A stretch of DNA of 64,000 nt from Phycisphaerae bacterium (GTDB lineage Bacteria > Planctomycetota > Phycisphaerae > Phycisphaerales > UBA1924). A program made the translations under genes and the position numbers. The notes under the pieces were generated by a model, which worked only from the letters and a program-made list of their open reading frames with translations, was not told the origin of the DNA and searched no databases. The stretch spans positions 1 to 64,000 of the forward strand of contig VGXM01000008.1 of NCBI GenBank assembly GCA_016873295.1, written 5' to 3'. Below, in pieces: positions 3,780 to 23,423 of the stretch; position 1 is the stretch's first letter; the number at the start of each line of letters is the position of its first letter.

Positions 3780-4922
3780 TTGCTTCAGACGCCGCTGCAC
3801 CGCTTTCATCTCGACCACGGCGCCAAGATGGTCGAGTTCGCGGGCTGGGAGATGCCGCTGGTCTACACGTCGCTGACGGAGGAGCACCGGCAGACGCGGA
3901 CGAGCGGCGGTCTGTTCGACGTGTCGCACATGGGTCGGCTTCGGGTGACGGGTCGGCACGCGCGGCGGCTCCTGGAGCGGGCGTGCACGCGGCGGATCCA
4001 CGACATGCAGTCGGGGCAGTGCCGCTACTCGCTGGTGTGCAACCCGCGGGGCGGCGTGATGGACGACGTGATCGTCTACCGCGTCGACGACGACGAGTTC
4101 ATCGTGGTGGTCAACGCTTCCAACCGCGAGAAGATCGTGGGGCACCTGGCCCAGGTGCAGGGGGGGAAGTTCCACGGCGACGGGGAGCTGATGGCCAGGG
4201 TGGACGACCAGACGGCGCGGACGGCGATGGTGGCGCTGCAGGGCCCCAAGGTCATGGAGTTCATCGCCAGCTTCAGCAAGGAGATCCCCACGCTGAAGCG
4301 GTACCGCTTCGCGGTGAAGAACCTGCTGATCGCCAAGCTGTACGTCAGCCGCACGGGGTACACGGGCGAGGACGGCGTGGAGGCGATCCTGCCGGCGGAC
4401 ATGGTGCCGATGGCGATGACGCTGCTGCTGCGCGGGATGGACCTCAAGGCGCCGGGGTCGCTGATCCGCCCGTGCGGGCTCGGGGCCCGCGACACGCTGC
4501 GGATCGAGGCGGGCATGCCGCTGTACGGGCACGAGCTGGGGGAGGAGATCGACGCGCTCTCGTGCGGCGTGGGCTTTGCGATCAGCCTCGACAAGGCGGC
4601 GGGCGAGCACGCCGAGCGCTTCGTGGGGATGGATGCGCTGGAGAAGACGAAGGCGTCGGGCGGGCCGGCGCGGGAGTTGGTGGGCCTGGCGATCGAGGGC
4701 AAGCGCTCGGCCCGCCAGGGCATGGGCGTGCGGCACGCCGGGCGGGGCGTGGGCACGGTCACCAGCGGCTGCCCGAGCCCGACTCTGGGCAGGTGCATCG
4801 CCATGGCGTTCGTGGACAAGGACCTGGCGTCGGCGGGCACGGCCCTGAGCGTGGACACGGGCAAGGGCGAGACGCTCCCGGCCCGGGTGGTGCCGCTGCC
4901 GTTCTACAAGGCGGGGAAGTAG
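3780..4922 (+). CDS. gcvT: Aminomethyltransferase (glycine cleavage T protein)
   Basis: Moves the aminomethyl group of the glycine cleavage H protein to tetrahydrofolate, releasing ammonia. The 380 residues match the family length, with the N-terminal H-x-x-x-G-A-K-M-V-E-F-A-G-W-E-M-P signature, DVSHMG, and the folate-binding core including RTGYTGEDGVE. The frame is open far upstream into panC. The true start is taken as TTG 3780 because GAAGGAG lies six bases before it and the protein then begins exactly at the conserved LQTPLH segment. The other gcv genes are not in the window. Confidence 0.93.
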   Translation: MLQTPLHRFHLDHGAKMVEFAGWEMPLVYTSLTEEHRQTRTSGGLFDVSHMGRLRVTGRHARRLLERACTRRIHDMQSGQCRYSLVCNPRGGVMDDVIVYRVDDDEFIVVVNASNREKIVGHLAQVQGGKFHGDGELMARVDDQTARTAMVALQGPKVMEFIASFSKEIPTLKRYRFAVKNLLIAKLYVSRTGYTGEDGVEAILPADMVPMAMTLLLRGMDLKAPGSLIRPCGLGARDTLRIEAGMPLYGHELGEEIDALSCGVGFAISLDKAAGEHAERFVGMDALEKTKASGGPARELVGLAIEGKRSARQGMGVRHAGRGVGTVTSGCPSPTLGRCIAMAFVDKDLASAGTALSVDTGKGETLPARVVPLPFYKAGK

Positions 4923-17135: not shown

Positions 17136-17142
17136 CGGGTGC

Positions 17143-17234
17143 CACGACTGTGCCGCTTGGGGCACAGTCGTGCCGGCAGGGCACAGTCGTGCCGGCGGGG
17201 AGAGCACGACTGTTCGCCGAGCCGAACAGTCGTG
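17143..17234. repeat. Hairpin repeat cluster 3
   Basis: One type B hairpin (17143-17172, loop GCTTGG), a duplicated right half of type B (GCACAGTCGTGCCGGC, 17181-17196) and one type A hairpin (17205-17234). All carry the CACGACTGT/ACAGTCGTG outer stem found at 2-251 and 6249-6785. The cluster lies exactly between two truncated genes. Confidence 0.93.
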
Positions 17235-17246
17235 GCACGCCCCCGG

Positions 17247-17269
17247 GTAGGACAGGCGTCCCGCCGGCG
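17247..17269. repeat. Solo REP-like palindrome of the valS-RAYT family
   Basis: GTAG followed by GACAGGCG-TCC-CGCC and then GGCG. This is the palindrome that bounds the RAYT insert in valS, with the right arm partly degenerate. The preceding GTAG equals the tetranucleotide that classical REP elements carry at the foot of the hairpin. Confidence 0.7.
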
Positions 17270-17620: not shown

Positions 17621-18683
17621 AGGGGCTCGACTCAAACAACCTGCCACCCGGCACGGCCGCGCACGGGTGGCTTGCCATCGGCGGCGAGCGTGTCGAGGGC
17701 GGCTGGCGCTACGCCGAGCGCAACGCCGACGGTGAGCGGATCGGCGTCATCACGCGCTGGGACGCCCCGGCGGAGGGCCAGCCTCGCTACACCGCCGCCA
17801 AGGGCAGCAAGCGGGGCCTGATCTTCCCCGCCGACGGCCTGCACGCCCACTCGGGTGCGAGCGTGCGCGAGCCCGTCCTCATCGCCGGGGGGCCAGCGAC
17901 ACCGTCTGCCTGATCTCGTGCGGCTTCACGGCCATCGGGATCCCAATGGCCGACCGCTGCGCCGATGAACTCGCCCGACTCATCCGCGATCGGCACCAGC
18001 CGCGCCATCGCGCTCCACGCCGCGTGGCACGAGCCCGCGGTGCTGTGGTCGGTCGTCGCTGCGCCGTCCGGCACGGGCACACCGCCATCGCTCGAACTCA
18101 TCGCTCGTCCCGCCGAGCGACGCGGCGCTTCGGCGCTGCGCGGGCACAAGGAAGCGATGAAGCAGCACGCCGCCGAGGTGGCCCAGCATGAGAAGGCCAT
18201 GCGCGCATGGGAGCGTGGCTCGGGCAAGGGCAATCTGTCCTCGACGCCGCCCGCCGCTCCGGAGACACCGGTGTGCGAGCGGATGGTCACGAACGGCGCG
18301 CCGCTCGAAGCGTTGGCGGCCATGCTCGCCGCCGGCCCGCGCGGGCCGCTGCTGACCTGCGACGAACTGGCCGCCTGGCTCGGCGGGTTCACACGCTACT
18401 CCGCGAACGCCGGTCGTCCGGCGAGCGAAGCGGCGCGCTGGCCGCCGCCGCGCCGGGCCAGTTCGCTCCGCGTCGATCGGCGCACCGCCCCGCCGCTGCT
18501 CGTCGGGCGGGCAGCCCTCAACATCGGGGGGTTGATCCAGCCCGCGGCGCTCGCCGCGGCGCTCACGGGCACGGACTTCGACTCGGGGCCGGTCGCCCGG
18601 CTCCTGCTGTCGATCCCCCCACCCCCACTCCCCCACACGCCGATCCCGACCCGGCGCCGGCAGCCCGGCGGCATCTCGCCCAT
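17614..18683 (+). pseudogene. Broken DUF3987 (primase/helicase-like) gene of a mobile element
   Basis: Fragments of one gene in shifted frames. From 17614 a toprim-like part runs through LIFPADGLHAHSG and EPVLIA, then shifts frame near 17885, where GASDTVCLISCGFTAIGIP continues in another frame. From 17965 a DUF3987-type part follows: LWSVVAAPSGTGTPPSLEL (Walker A-like position), a coiled stretch KEAMKQHAAEVAQHEKAM, then LTCDELAAWLGGFTRYS near 18355-18400, PALNIGG and a truncated end. Such proteins are replication genes of integrative elements and phages. Several frameshifts and deletions make it non-functional. Confidence 0.75.
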
Positions 18684-18840
18684 GGTCCAGCGGGCGCACG
18701 GCGTGATGGTCGAAAGGATGGCTCAGGTCGTTGCCAACAGCGCGCTCCGAGCGGGGGGTGCCGGGGTGCGGCAGCCCCCGGCATCCGAGAGACCGATCGC
18801 TTAAACTTGCCAAGTGATCGTCGCTTAGAATGCCGTCCAC

Positions 18841-20526
18841 ATGCCCGCATTGACCGACATCGTTGAACGCGGCTATTTTCCCAAAGAACTTCCGCCGTGT
18901 TTTTCAACGCGGATGTACGCCGCTGCGCTGACGAAGGCCGGGGCCACGCCGCCGCCACAGTTCAACCCCCATGGGTCGATGGCGGATTCCAAGCCCGTGA
19001 CGTTCGCTCTGGCACGGCCCGGGACGCTGCGTCGGAGGCTGGCAATACCGCACCCGACCGCATTCTACCGGATCTCGAGACTGCTCGCGGACCACTGGGC
19101 GACCATTGCTGCGCACTGCGCAACGTCAACGCTGTCGCTCAGCATCCCAGTTGACGATCCGGTTGGTCGTGCGGTCAAGGTGAAGGAGGGGTTCGCAGCC
19201 CGATCTGTGCGCCGCGCGGTAGATCGCGCAGGTTCAAGATACCTGCTTCGTGCAGACTTGGCGGAGTTCTACCCGACGCTGTACACCCACAGCATTCCCT
19301 GGGCCCTGCACACAAAACCAACCGCCAAGGCCAACAGAACGCGGATGCGCGAAGCGCCGTCGGGCCTTTTGGGTAACGACCTCGACTACCACTACATGCG
19401 CTGCAACTCAAACCAGACGAAAGGGATCGCCATCGGCCCCGACCCGTCCTTTGTTATTGCAGAGTCCGTGCTCGCTGCATGCGATGTGCTGCTCGTCACT
19501 CGTTTGCGCGGCGTCCGCGGCTTCCGAATCTACGACGATTTCGAGTTGTGCTTTAACTCGCTTGAACAAGCGGAGCACGGGCTTGCCGTGCTGCAAGGCG
19601 TGCTCGCAGAGTACGAGTTGGCGTTGAACCCTCGAAAGACCAAGATCGTCGCTCTGCCCGATCATCTGGGGTACGACTTTGTCTCGGCGCTCGCGCAGTT
19701 CAACTTCGGGACCGAGCCCGCGTCCCAGGCGGAGGTGTTGATTGCCTTCTTTGGCTGGCTTTTCACCTACTGCAAGTCCCACCCCGATGAACATGTCGTA
19801 AGCTACGGCGTGGGGCGACTCAAGAAGGAAGCAATCGCACCGAGCAACTGGGACATGTTGACCGGCTTGCTTCTGCAAGCCGCCAACGCCGATTCGAGCG
19901 CGTGGCAAAACGTCGCAGAGATCCTAGAAGGGGCCTTCGGGAAGGGCCTGCCCATCGCGAAGCCGCTGATCGCTCGATCCGTCGACGCGGCTATTCTCCG
20001 GCACGCCCCCTGCGGGCACAGCAGTGAACTCGCGTGGGGCCTATGGCTCATGCTCCGACTGCATCTGGAAGTTTCGGCAGAGGCCACGAAGCTGCTAGGT
20101 GTGCTCGACGACCCAGTTGTCGCCCTACTAACGCTCGATGCCGAAGCCGCAGGGCTCTTGCAAGGCACGCTCGACAAGACACGATGGCAGGCGAGGATGA
20201 GTACTCAAGACCTGAAGTCAGACCAGTGGTTGCTCGCCTACGAGGCATTCGTTCAGGGTTGGCTTACCTCTCCCACGGGCGCGGACCACCTCACCGCCGA
20301 TGCGGAGTTCGACTGGCTCAGGAATCAGGGAGTCCGGTTCTACCAGCGGGTCTCGGCGGCGGTGGTTGCGGCACCCAAGCCCACGCTGCCTGTGACAGCG
20401 GCCCCCAAGGCAGGTGTGGTCAAGGCACCATCCAAGCCAGCCGTCCCCGCCCCGTCGGTCTCGGCACCTGCCAAGGAACCGGAACCGTCGACGGAAGCAA
20501 CCGACGATCAGTGGTTCTACTTCTAG
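18841..20526 (+). CDS. Reverse transcriptase of the defence-associated / unknown-group type
   Basis: A 561-residue RNA-directed DNA polymerase. It opens with RGYFPKELPPCFST; motif A is RADLAEFYPTLYTHSIPWALH near residue 140; motif B is KGIAIGPDPSFVIAE near 200; motif C is RIYDDFELCF near 230; then LNPRKTKI. A helical region of about 250 residues follows, then an Ala/Pro-rich linker ending DDQWFYF. Motif style and the long C-terminus resemble AbiK/AbiA-like and DRT defence reverse transcriptases; there is no maturase or group II intron RNA. Its base composition is visibly richer in A/T than its neighbours, so it was probably acquired. Its exact DRT class is not assigned here. Confidence 0.85.
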   Translation: MPALTDIVERGYFPKELPPCFSTRMYAAALTKAGATPPPQFNPHGSMADSKPVTFALARPGTLRRRLAIPHPTAFYRISRLLADHWATIAAHCATSTLSLSIPVDDPVGRAVKVKEGFAARSVRRAVDRAGSRYLLRADLAEFYPTLYTHSIPWALHTKPTAKANRTRMREAPSGLLGNDLDYHYMRCNSNQTKGIAIGPDPSFVIAESVLAACDVLLVTRLRGVRGFRIYDDFELCFNSLEQAEHGLAVLQGVLAEYELALNPRKTKIVALPDHLGYDFVSALAQFNFGTEPASQAEVLIAFFGWLFTYCKSHPDEHVVSYGVGRLKKEAIAPSNWDMLTGLLLQAANADSSAWQNVAEILEGAFGKGLPIAKPLIARSVDAAILRHAPCGHSSELAWGLWLMLRLHLEVSAEATKLLGVLDDPVVALLTLDAEAAGLLQGTLDKTRWQARMSTQDLKSDQWLLAYEAFVQGWLTSPTGADHLTADAEFDWLRNQGVRFYQRVSAAVVAAPKPTLPVTAAPKAGVVKAPSKPAVPAPSVSAPAKEPEPSTEATDDQWFYF

Positions 20527-20679
20527 CAGTTGCTCCTCAGCTTTGCCGGGGGCTACTGCCCCCCGGCACCCCCCGCCCAATCCACCGAAAAGTGCGTTTG
20601 CGGGCCGGGATGAGCGGTTTCCGCCCTGGCGGGCAACGCATCTGCTGTGGCGGGGCCGGTGCTCGCCCCCGTCCGCCTC

Positions 20680-20895: not shown

Positions 20896-21214
20896 ATGGC
20901 CGAACGCCGCTTCCCCAGGCCGGATGGCCACTTCGCCGCGTACATGAACAACTACTTCGAGGCCGTCAAGAAGTGGTGGGACACGCAGGGGCTGGGCCCG
21001 TCCGGCCTCACGCCGCTGGAAGCCGCCCTCGCGGCGTGGAACACCAACTTCGCCGTGCAGGTCGCGCTGCGGGCCGAGGCGGCGGGGGGGCGCCAGAACA
21101 AGGACGCGGCCCGGCGCGAACTCGATGCCGAGGCCCGGCCCTTCACCTCGTTCATCCAGGGCTACCCCAAGACCACCGACGCCGACCGCGCCACCATCGG
21201 CATCACGATCCGCG
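20896..21214 (+). pseudogene. N-terminal half of a split planctomycete protein
   Basis: About 106 residues starting MAERRFPRPDGHFAAYM, continuing with TPLEAALAAW, a helical A-A-R-R-E-L-D-A-E-A-R stretch and TTDADRATIGITIR. I recall this N-terminal module, followed by a fibronectin-like domain, as common in planctomycete and related genomes. The reading frame leaves the conserved sequence at 21211-21214 (CGCG). The matching second half appears at 22667 after the same CGCG. Confidence 0.7.
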
Positions 21215-21227
21215 CCGCCGATGGGGG

Positions 21228-21345
21228 GGGCGGGCGTTCCGCTCCGGACGGCCCAGGCCGCGTTGCGGCACAGCGACCCGAGCCCGACGGCCAATGTCTA
21301 CACCGACCCCAAACTCCTCGACGTGGCCGGGGGAGCGGGGGGTGC
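21228..21345 (+). pseudogene. Tyrosine recombinase C-terminal fragment
   Basis: About 38 residues: GVPLRTAQAALRHSDPS, then TANVYTDPKLLDVAG. This is the end of an XerC/phage-type integrase, with the conserved histidine in LRHSD and the nucleophilic tyrosine in NVYTDP. No upstream catalytic part exists. It sits inside the segment that splits the gene described at 20896 and 22667. Confidence 0.8.
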
Positions 21346-21359
21346 GGTGGATGTTGAAG

Positions 21360-22454
21360 TTACGAGCGCCCGCCCCGCCGCCGCCGCGCCGCGAAGAGGC
21401 CGCCAAGGCCCAGGAGCGCGGCCGCGCCGGGCGCGGGGATCGGCCGCGTCCAGAGCAGGGCTTCGATTCGACCCGTGACCGAGCTGTAGCCCCAGCCGGT
21501 GATGTACGTGTTGACGCTGTCGCTGGAGATCCCGCGTGCCCAGCTCTCCCTGCTGAATCCTGCGGGCAGAAAGGCATGTAGATCAACCCACGAGGCCGCG
21601 GTCCCGCTCCACAGGCTCGCACGGGCCACCCCGCCCACAATGGCCCACCCCGCCTGCTGCCCGCCGCTGGCAGCATACGCGCGGGACCACGTCGAGCCCG
21701 CCGGGTTGAGATCGACCCACGAGGCGGCGGTCCCGCTCCACAGGCTCGCACGGGTCACCCCGCCCACAATGGCGTGCCCCGCCTGCTGCCCGCCGCTGGC
21801 AGCCCACGCAGTGGACTCCGTCGCGTCCGCCGGGTGGAGATCGACCCACGAGGCGGCGGTCCCGCTCCACAGACTCGCACGTTGCACCCCGCCCACCCAG
21901 GCGGACCCCGCCTGCTGCCCGCCGCTGATGGCATACGCGGAGGAATTCGTCGCGCCCGCCGGGTGGAGGTCGACCCACGAGGCGGCGGTCCCGCTCCACA
22001 GGCTCGCACGGATCGCCCCGCCCACAGTGGCCCACCCCGCCTGCTGCCCGGCGCTGATGGCTTGCGCGGCGGACCACGTCGAGCCCGCCGGGTTGAGATC
22101 GACCCACGAGGCCGCGGTCCCGCTCCACAGGCTTGCGTGGTAGTTTTCGCCCACAAGAGCGACCCCCGCCTGCTGCCCGCCGCTGACGCCAAACGCCTCG
22201 GACCACGTCGAGCCCGCCGGGTGGAGATCGACCCACGAGGCGGCGGTCCCGCTCCACAGGCTCGCGTGGCGCACCCCGCCCACATCGCCCCACCCCGCCT
22301 GCTGCCCGCCGCTGGCGGCATTCGCGATGGAACCCGTCGAGCCCGCCGGTTTGAGGTTGGTGACGGTCCACTGCGCGTGCGCCGTGGAGGTCAGGGCGAC
22401 GGTGCTGGTTCAGGCCGCGAGCGCGGCCACGCTGATGACGGACTTCACGGACAT
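21360..22454 (-). pseudogene. Repeat protein with PEP-CTERM-like tail, interrupted by TGA
   Basis: From ATG 22454 the frame encodes a signal-peptide start MSVKSVISVAALAA, then TGA at 22412-22410, then TSTVALTSTAHAQWT. The last part completes an ordinary signal peptide with cleavage after AHA. The mature part is six units of 43 residues (129 bp) built on ASLWSGTAASWVDL and SGGQQAG. The C-terminus is IPAPGAAALLGLGG plus an RRRR cluster, a PEP-CTERM-like sorting signal of Phycisphaerae type. The frame is otherwise open to its end, so one nonsense change inactivates the secretion start unless a later GTG (22283) is used, which would lack a signal peptide. Confidence 0.75.
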
Positions 22455-23326: not shown

Positions 23327-23351
23327 CTTGATTCCGCCGAGTGCTCAGAAG

Positions 23352-23423
23352 AGCGGGCGACCGGGATCGAACCGGCGACATTCAGCTTGGGAAGCTGACG
23401 TTCTACCGCTGAACTACGCCCGC
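23352..23423 (-). tRNA. tRNA-Gly (anticodon CCC)
   Basis: Folds as a standard cloverleaf: acceptor GCGGGCG/CGCCCGC, D-arm GTTC...GAAC, anticodon stem TCAGC/GCTGA with loop TTCCCAA, and T-arm GCCGG-TTCGATC-CCGGT. CCA is not encoded. The 3' end points at the region of mobile-element remnants (17.0-23.1 kb), the usual orientation for a tRNA integration target. Confidence 0.95.

Follow-up and report, generated by a model that had tools for sequence, protein, structure and literature searches.

Reverse transcriptase (RT)-like enzymes of class 1 are known for template-independent DNA synthesis, which is protein-primed in some cases (PMC13174585; PMC9508834), and the members investigated to date need no nucleic-acid template (PMC13174585). 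DRT4, encoded by one gene, synthesises random single-stranded DNA (ssDNA) from a tyrosine primer, its product being protected by a phage protein; DRT6 is described as a structural homologue of DRT4 activated by the same phage protein, with a less resolved product chemistry (reviewed in PMC13213688; PMC13314766). The gene at 18841-20526 of the window (the whole 64,000-nt stretch of DNA that was analysed) encodes, to judge from the HMM ranking and structure matches on which its placement is based, a DRT6-group (UG12) polymerase of UG/Abi class 1. It is probably a single-protein antiphage enzyme acting by the mechanism proposed below, carried as a one-gene cassette between two hairpins that most likely delimit exchangeable defence cargo. 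The DRT6 family is already known and this protein is a distant member of it; the unexpected part is the hairpin-delimited defence cassette, and the hairpin boundary matters more than the enzyme. The features of the locus are the following:

17965..18804 (+): truncated DUF3987 (primase-helicase-like) gene left of the cassette; Pfam E = 1.4e-21, part of the domain
18751..20576 (+): hairpin-bracketed one-gene cassette, 1826 bp, with a GC step at both hairpins
18751..18783 (-): left hairpin repeat; 57 nt separate its gene-facing end from the RT start codon
18841..20526 (+): gene for the putative DRT6-type (UG12, class 1 UG/Abi) RT-like polymerase, 561 aa; intact ORF, matched by PADLOC Drt6 and PDB 9wy8
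19255..19257 (+): motif A catalytic Asp, D139, invariant in the 64-row alignment
19531..19539 (+): motif C, Y231-D232-D233 (IYDDF box); D232 invariant, D233 at least 90%
19708..20352 (+): C-terminal helical-repeat domain, about residues 290-504; all-helical, pLDDT 92-98 in nearly all blocks, aligned to 9wy8
20356..20523 (+): disordered Pro/Ala tail, about residues 506-561, ending DDQWFYF; pLDDT <60 from residue 511
20544..20576 (+): right hairpin repeat, 17 nt after the RT stop codon
20896..21358 (+): truncated gene (MAERRFPRPDGHFAAYMNNYF...) right of the cassette, preceded by short GC-rich repeats
21125..21478 (+): weak integrase C-terminal scrap; Pfam Phage_integrase E = 0.24, below cut-off

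The RT ORF (18841-20526, forward strand) has an ATG start, encodes 561 aa with zero internal stops and retains the Asp triad D139, D232 and D233, the codons of the last two being located at 19534-19539. Its GC content is 0.60-0.65 against 0.70-0.76 in the flanks, about 10 points lower, and the gene is present as a single copy in the source genome (3.14 Mb). The original prediction of an intact RT with all catalytic motifs, A/T-richer than its neighbours and lying amid mobile debris, was therefore borne out, the debris being the DUF3987 remnant and the weak integrase scrap that flank the gene. Concerning the family, the PADLOC Drt6 model PDLC03748, for which PADLOC gives no cut-off, ranks first (E = 4e-150, 499 bits, residues 3-504), against 225 bits for the UG15-type Drt4 model PDLC03752. 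Two other PADLOC models named Drt4 reach about 470 bits; both score high on all DRT6-type relatives and low on the protein of locus L016, which prefers the other PADLOC Drt4 models, and they were thus treated as the same group as Drt6. The NCBIfam Drt4 score is 201 bits, below the 450-bit cut-off, while phmmer aligned the protein with the DRT6 of PDB 9wy8 at 230 bits. An AlphaFold model built from 64 sequences has a mean pLDDT of 91.6 and a disordered tail, and for this model Foldseek placed the hexameric DRT6 9wy8 first (TM 0.84/0.94, rmsd 2.0 Å, 503 columns), followed by UG15/DRT4, AbiK and Abi-P2, with intron RTs far behind. Family, fold and intact catalytic residues are thus shown.

The likeness to DRT6/UG12 (9wy8) comprises homology over residues 3-503, the fold at 2.0 Å and the single-gene make-up, whereas identity is only about 30% and the window protein has its own Pro/Ala tail ending WFYF and lies between hairpins. 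DRT4/UG15 (PDB 9vdo, 9l9s), for which Tyr-primed template-independent ssDNA has been reported, shares the class and the domain plan but is more distant (rmsd 4-4.5 Å, 21% identity). In a protein search, 12 of 392 sampled genomes of the phylum gave a match, the full-length ones being 38-40% identical, and the nearest relatives are about 40% identical in protein. An alignment-based search of a genome contig collection yielded 321 candidate stretches encoding relatives, of which 80 from many phyla were kept; a single-protein scan of the same collection found no relative, and phage records gave partial RT matches only.

By analogy with the class 1 enzymes studied, the DRT6-type protein would form a hexamer making ssDNA without a nucleic-acid template, and a hydroxyl-bearing residue of its own would serve as the start of synthesis. 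In an infected cell, a phage factor would let the ssDNA product accumulate, and phage production would be aborted. By its class, the RT should need no non-coding RNA. A conserved non-coding RNA beside the gene had been anticipated and was not found: the flanks of the RT gene have no Rfam match, and the fold z-scores (-2.4 upstream and -0.8 downstream) are both explained by the two hairpins.

An RT domain followed by a helical-repeat domain and a C-terminal tail is the class 1 plan. The long helical C-terminal domain and the Pro/Ala stretch ending DDQWFYF described in the original prediction are both present, but they do not form a distinct architecture, since the solved DRT6 matches (TM 0.84/0.94); the Pro/Ala segment is a variable disordered tail. 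AbiK, Abi-P2 and DRT3b resemble the window protein in class and helical domain, and all three are protein-primed, DRT3b from the tip of its C-terminal tail, where Y666 of 667, the penultimate residue, is the primer (PMC13174585). AbiK and Abi-P2 prime from a Tyr in an N-terminal loop, for which the window protein has no matching conserved Tyr; the candidate considered, Y12, alternates with Phe among relatives, so its hydroxyl is not required, and it was rejected. Y148 is invariant and Y467 nearly invariant, and both may be structural. At the other end, Y560 (codon 20518-20520) is the penultimate of 561 residues and can be conjectured as a candidate protein primer. A Tyr is found among the last two residues in 26 of 76 non-redundant relatives; 8.2 are expected from shuffling the tails, and none of 5000 shuffles reached 26. 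The closest relatives (L017, L072, L002 and L003) are without a C-terminal Tyr, and priming by Y560 is consequently a lead.

It is possible, if on balance doubtful, that the acidic-aromatic C-terminus is no primer and instead docks on a partner, like the tip of the SSB tail. Such docking agrees with an aromatic last residue in 33 of the 76 relatives (9.9 expected), where Phe is enriched as well as Tyr, and with the tails of several relatives, which end DDLPF, DDDLPF or DDIPY and come near the E. coli SSB tip. Enrichment of Tyr at the last two positions is however seen on its own, and the priming of DRT3b on its penultimate tail residue (PMC13174585) also speaks for the primer. Specifically, the SSB-tip-like C-termini were read in the DRT6 relatives L062 (DDLPF), L080 (DDIPY), L103 (DDDLPF) and L044 (EDLPFI). 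The window enzyme adds a distant member to the DRT6 group and a candidate priming residue that can be tested.

The two hairpins that bracket the gene, which the original prediction did not mention, are inverted 33-nt repeats, 91% complementary, each an imperfect palindrome. At the cassette edges GC is 0.61-0.62 on the inner side and 0.71-0.75 on the outer, and the open frame of the DUF3987 remnant runs into the left hairpin. The strict motif (up to 3 mismatches) occurs at these two sites only in the 3.14-Mb genome, and a shorter hairpin class (4 G/5 C versus 5 G/6 C) occurs once, at C1:78363. Among 201 genomes of the order searched, matches are confined to the family of the source genome, where a hairpin of either class is present in 30 of 163 genomes, each with 1-4 copies, mostly next to defence genes. 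Gene content suggests that the source organism is probably a planctomycete. The exact pattern is absent from the viral contigs searched, and no paper describing the hairpin was found in the literature searched, which was mostly without subscription journals. The existence of two stem-length classes is the sole structural sign of a selected hairpin fold; covariation by substitutions is unsupported, as no pair changes on both sides.

For the study of neighbouring genes, the neighbour of a hairpin was defined as the gene on its TGCC side, called by a simple ORF rule, and was counted as defence at a PADLOC E-value of 1e-10 or lower. PADLOC matches were obtained for 21 of 29 scanned neighbours, the window's own DRT6 gene included and some counts being modules and not the single nearest gene (L163), against 1 of 39 controls (Fisher p = 4e-10), which were 31 window genes (1 match) and 8 other genes of the same loci (0), taken irrespective of island context; the remaining 8 of the 29 have no match. 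The first hairpin set contributed 12 matches of 19 and the independent shorter-hairpin set 9 of 10. In the latter, 10 of 15 loci were scanned, and two of the five left out resemble HsdR and Mrr by eye. Neighbours recognised in the first set comprise ThsB/TIR genes, a PDC-S06 ATPase, a PifA-like KAP ATPase, type II restriction-modification (R-M), a retron-type RT, a PDC-S41 Schlafen helicase, a Ppl-like protein, CBASS NucC with TRIP13, a CBASS cyclase and PDC-S11 twice. Those of the shorter-hairpin set are a type IIG enzyme, a type II methylase, PDC-S73, IetA, a type IV mREase, REase_II, an AbiLi-like ATPase, HsdS and a type I methylase. A further two defence genes lie immediately beyond a hairpin (L161 and L212); because modules can adjoin, they were not used as controls, and including them raises the control count to 3 of 41, well short of 21 of 29. 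The association of the hairpin with defence genes is well supported.

Orientation and composition follow the same boundary. Hairpins have their TGCC side turned towards the cargo whether they precede a start codon (by 25-60 bp) or follow a stop (by 5-60 bp), and the inner kilobase has a lower GC than the outer in 31 of 37 hairpins (62.1 vs 67.3%, p = 4e-5). With up to 4 substitutions allowed, there are 7 inward hairpin pairs versus 1 outward, the latter being the gap between two cassettes in L160. The cassette layout of the window is also seen in L160, L161, L211, L213 and L216, while many hairpins are without a detectable partner. Locus L163 was considered as an exception to the orientation and discarded, as a shorter hairpin there puts the R-M operon on the inner side. 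From 20669 outward, the right flank of the window cassette is 73-82% identical in L213, L243 and L162, which have other cargo inside: specifically, another hairpin-bracketed gene in L213 and another gene, without a hairpin, in L243. A shared flank beside differing cargo fits cargo exchange at one site. A search with the right flank found no clean empty site, the same flank adjoining other cargo, and no target duplication is evident by eye at 18751/20576.

Bracketing is found in 2 of 71 DRT6 loci, the window and the acidobacterial L056, so a hairpin bracket as a general DRT6 feature was rejected and bracketing seems to be a property of the host lineage, not of DRT6. In L056, inverted copies of a palindrome (TCCCAGGTCTC...GGGGCACCC) are located at 2777-2809 and 4660-4692; this palindrome differs from the window hairpin and belongs to a local array with further copies at 2034, 2158 and 5526. 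Since the hairpin stands at the edges of many unrelated defence modules in the family, the pair most likely delimits exchangeable defence cargo. The hairpin is most likely, then, a defence-cassette boundary: association, orientation and composition step are observed, and mobility or exchange is inferred. If it marks defence cassettes across the family, it offers a sequence-only way to delimit defence modules, would predict defence roles for unannotated neighbours such as the 476-aa gene of L213, and would make the movement of single defence genes between islands directly testable. A bolder proposal, which we put forward tentatively as somewhat less than an even prospect, is that the low-copy GC-rich hairpins form the borders of a gene-cassette system, not described before, by which antiphage modules are captured and exchanged, the DRT6 of the window among them; the hairpin would then be a sequence hook for finding new defence genes.

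Several genes near hairpins deserve mention on their own. In L213, 500-1930 (-) encodes a hairpin-bracketed 476-aa protein whose C-terminal part contains RNPTAH, by eye a HEPN-like motif; it has no PADLOC or Pfam match and is a candidate new defence gene. An LRAT-domain gene lies between or beside hairpins in two genomes (L164 6183-6644, without a PADLOC match, and L205 91-567). Additionally, a small gene (MADYIPGPDA... or MAERRFPRPD...NNYYDAVKTWW...) recurs near hairpins in L160, L162, L227, L234 and L241, about 500 bp outside a hairpin in several loci, and is multi-copy in some genomes of the family; related genes are located at 20896-21358 in the window and at 2415-3089 in L213.

Among known systems, integron gene cassettes (attC) also have palindromic sites that delimit single genes of varied origin, and defence cargo is known from integrons. 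The window hairpins differ in being inverted pairs, with no attC core (GTTRRRY/RYYYAAC) seen by eye at the foot of the two and no integron integrase above cut-off in the source genome (best TIGR02249 score 90.6 bits, cut-off 265). Tn7-like and other defence-cargo transposons have inverted terminal repeats around defence genes (PMC8649781), whereas the window cassette has no transposase inside, is of single-gene size and shows no target duplication by eye.

The hairpins could also act as strong terminators of transcription or insulators accompanying genes acquired laterally, rather than as ends of mobile cassettes. We consider this rather unlikely: many hairpins do follow a stop codon by 5-60 bp, a GC hairpin could stop transcripts arriving from both directions and singles are commoner than pairs, but others lie 25-60 bp before start codons in reverse orientation, no T run follows the hairpin, and 1-4 copies per genome, mostly beside defence genes, are unlike general terminators.

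A third account takes them as REP-like palindromes spread by a Y1 (TnpA-REP/IS200-like) transposase, with the inverted pair as a REPIN-like unit with cargo. REP/REPIN elements with RAYT (TnpA-REP) are likewise imperfect palindromes, sometimes in inverted pairs, with Y1 transposases in the same genomes; Y1_Tnp genes occur in 23 of 30 hairpin-bearing versus 56 of 133 other family genomes (p = 0.001), an enrichment that may reflect ancestry, genome size or a larger mobilome, and both the source genome (C1) and G325 have a hairpin no more than about 1 kb from a Y1_Tnp gene. In the source genome this is the third copy, the short hairpin at C1:78363 (L225, G000:C1:73500-83500, hairpin at 4864), which has no recognised defence neighbour. 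REPs carry a GTAG or CGTC tag beside the palindrome (PMC3733652), whereas no such tag was seen by eye at the foot of the copies read. Copy number is low (1-4 per genome; 2 strict and 1 shorter in the source genome), kilobase cargo lies inside and seven hairpin-bearing genomes have no detected Y1_Tnp, all of which makes a REP-like origin improbable.

We likewise give little credence to an ordinary DRT6 within a decayed integrative element, where bracket and defence association would reflect defence islands generally. DUF3987 and integrase remnants do flank the RT gene, DRT6 relatives occur in many phyla with brackets at only the window and L056 of 71 loci, and some genes just outside hairpins are defence genes too (L161, L212); the orientation rule, the GC step at the hairpin and the replication in the second hairpin class would however not be expected from island context alone. 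Finally, a group II intron, retron or other retroelement RT is exceedingly improbable: a weak RVT_1 match and a group II maturase score of 33 bits speak for it, but that score is below the 300-bit cut-off and the full-length DRT6 HMM and structure matches are far stronger, in agreement with the original prediction of a defence RT and not an intron maturase.

Further repeats were recorded in the window. Six tandem 129-nt repeats at 21577-22350 lie inside the ORF 21360-22283 (-), which has a weak PEP-CTERM match, and an inverted-repeat cluster (GCACGACTGTTCG... and GGGCACAGTCGTGCC units) is located at 17139-17253 within an ORF region that weakly matches an IS66 zinc finger. A tRNA-Gly (ccc) at 23351-23423 (-), about 2.8 kb right of the cassette, is a possible old integration target.
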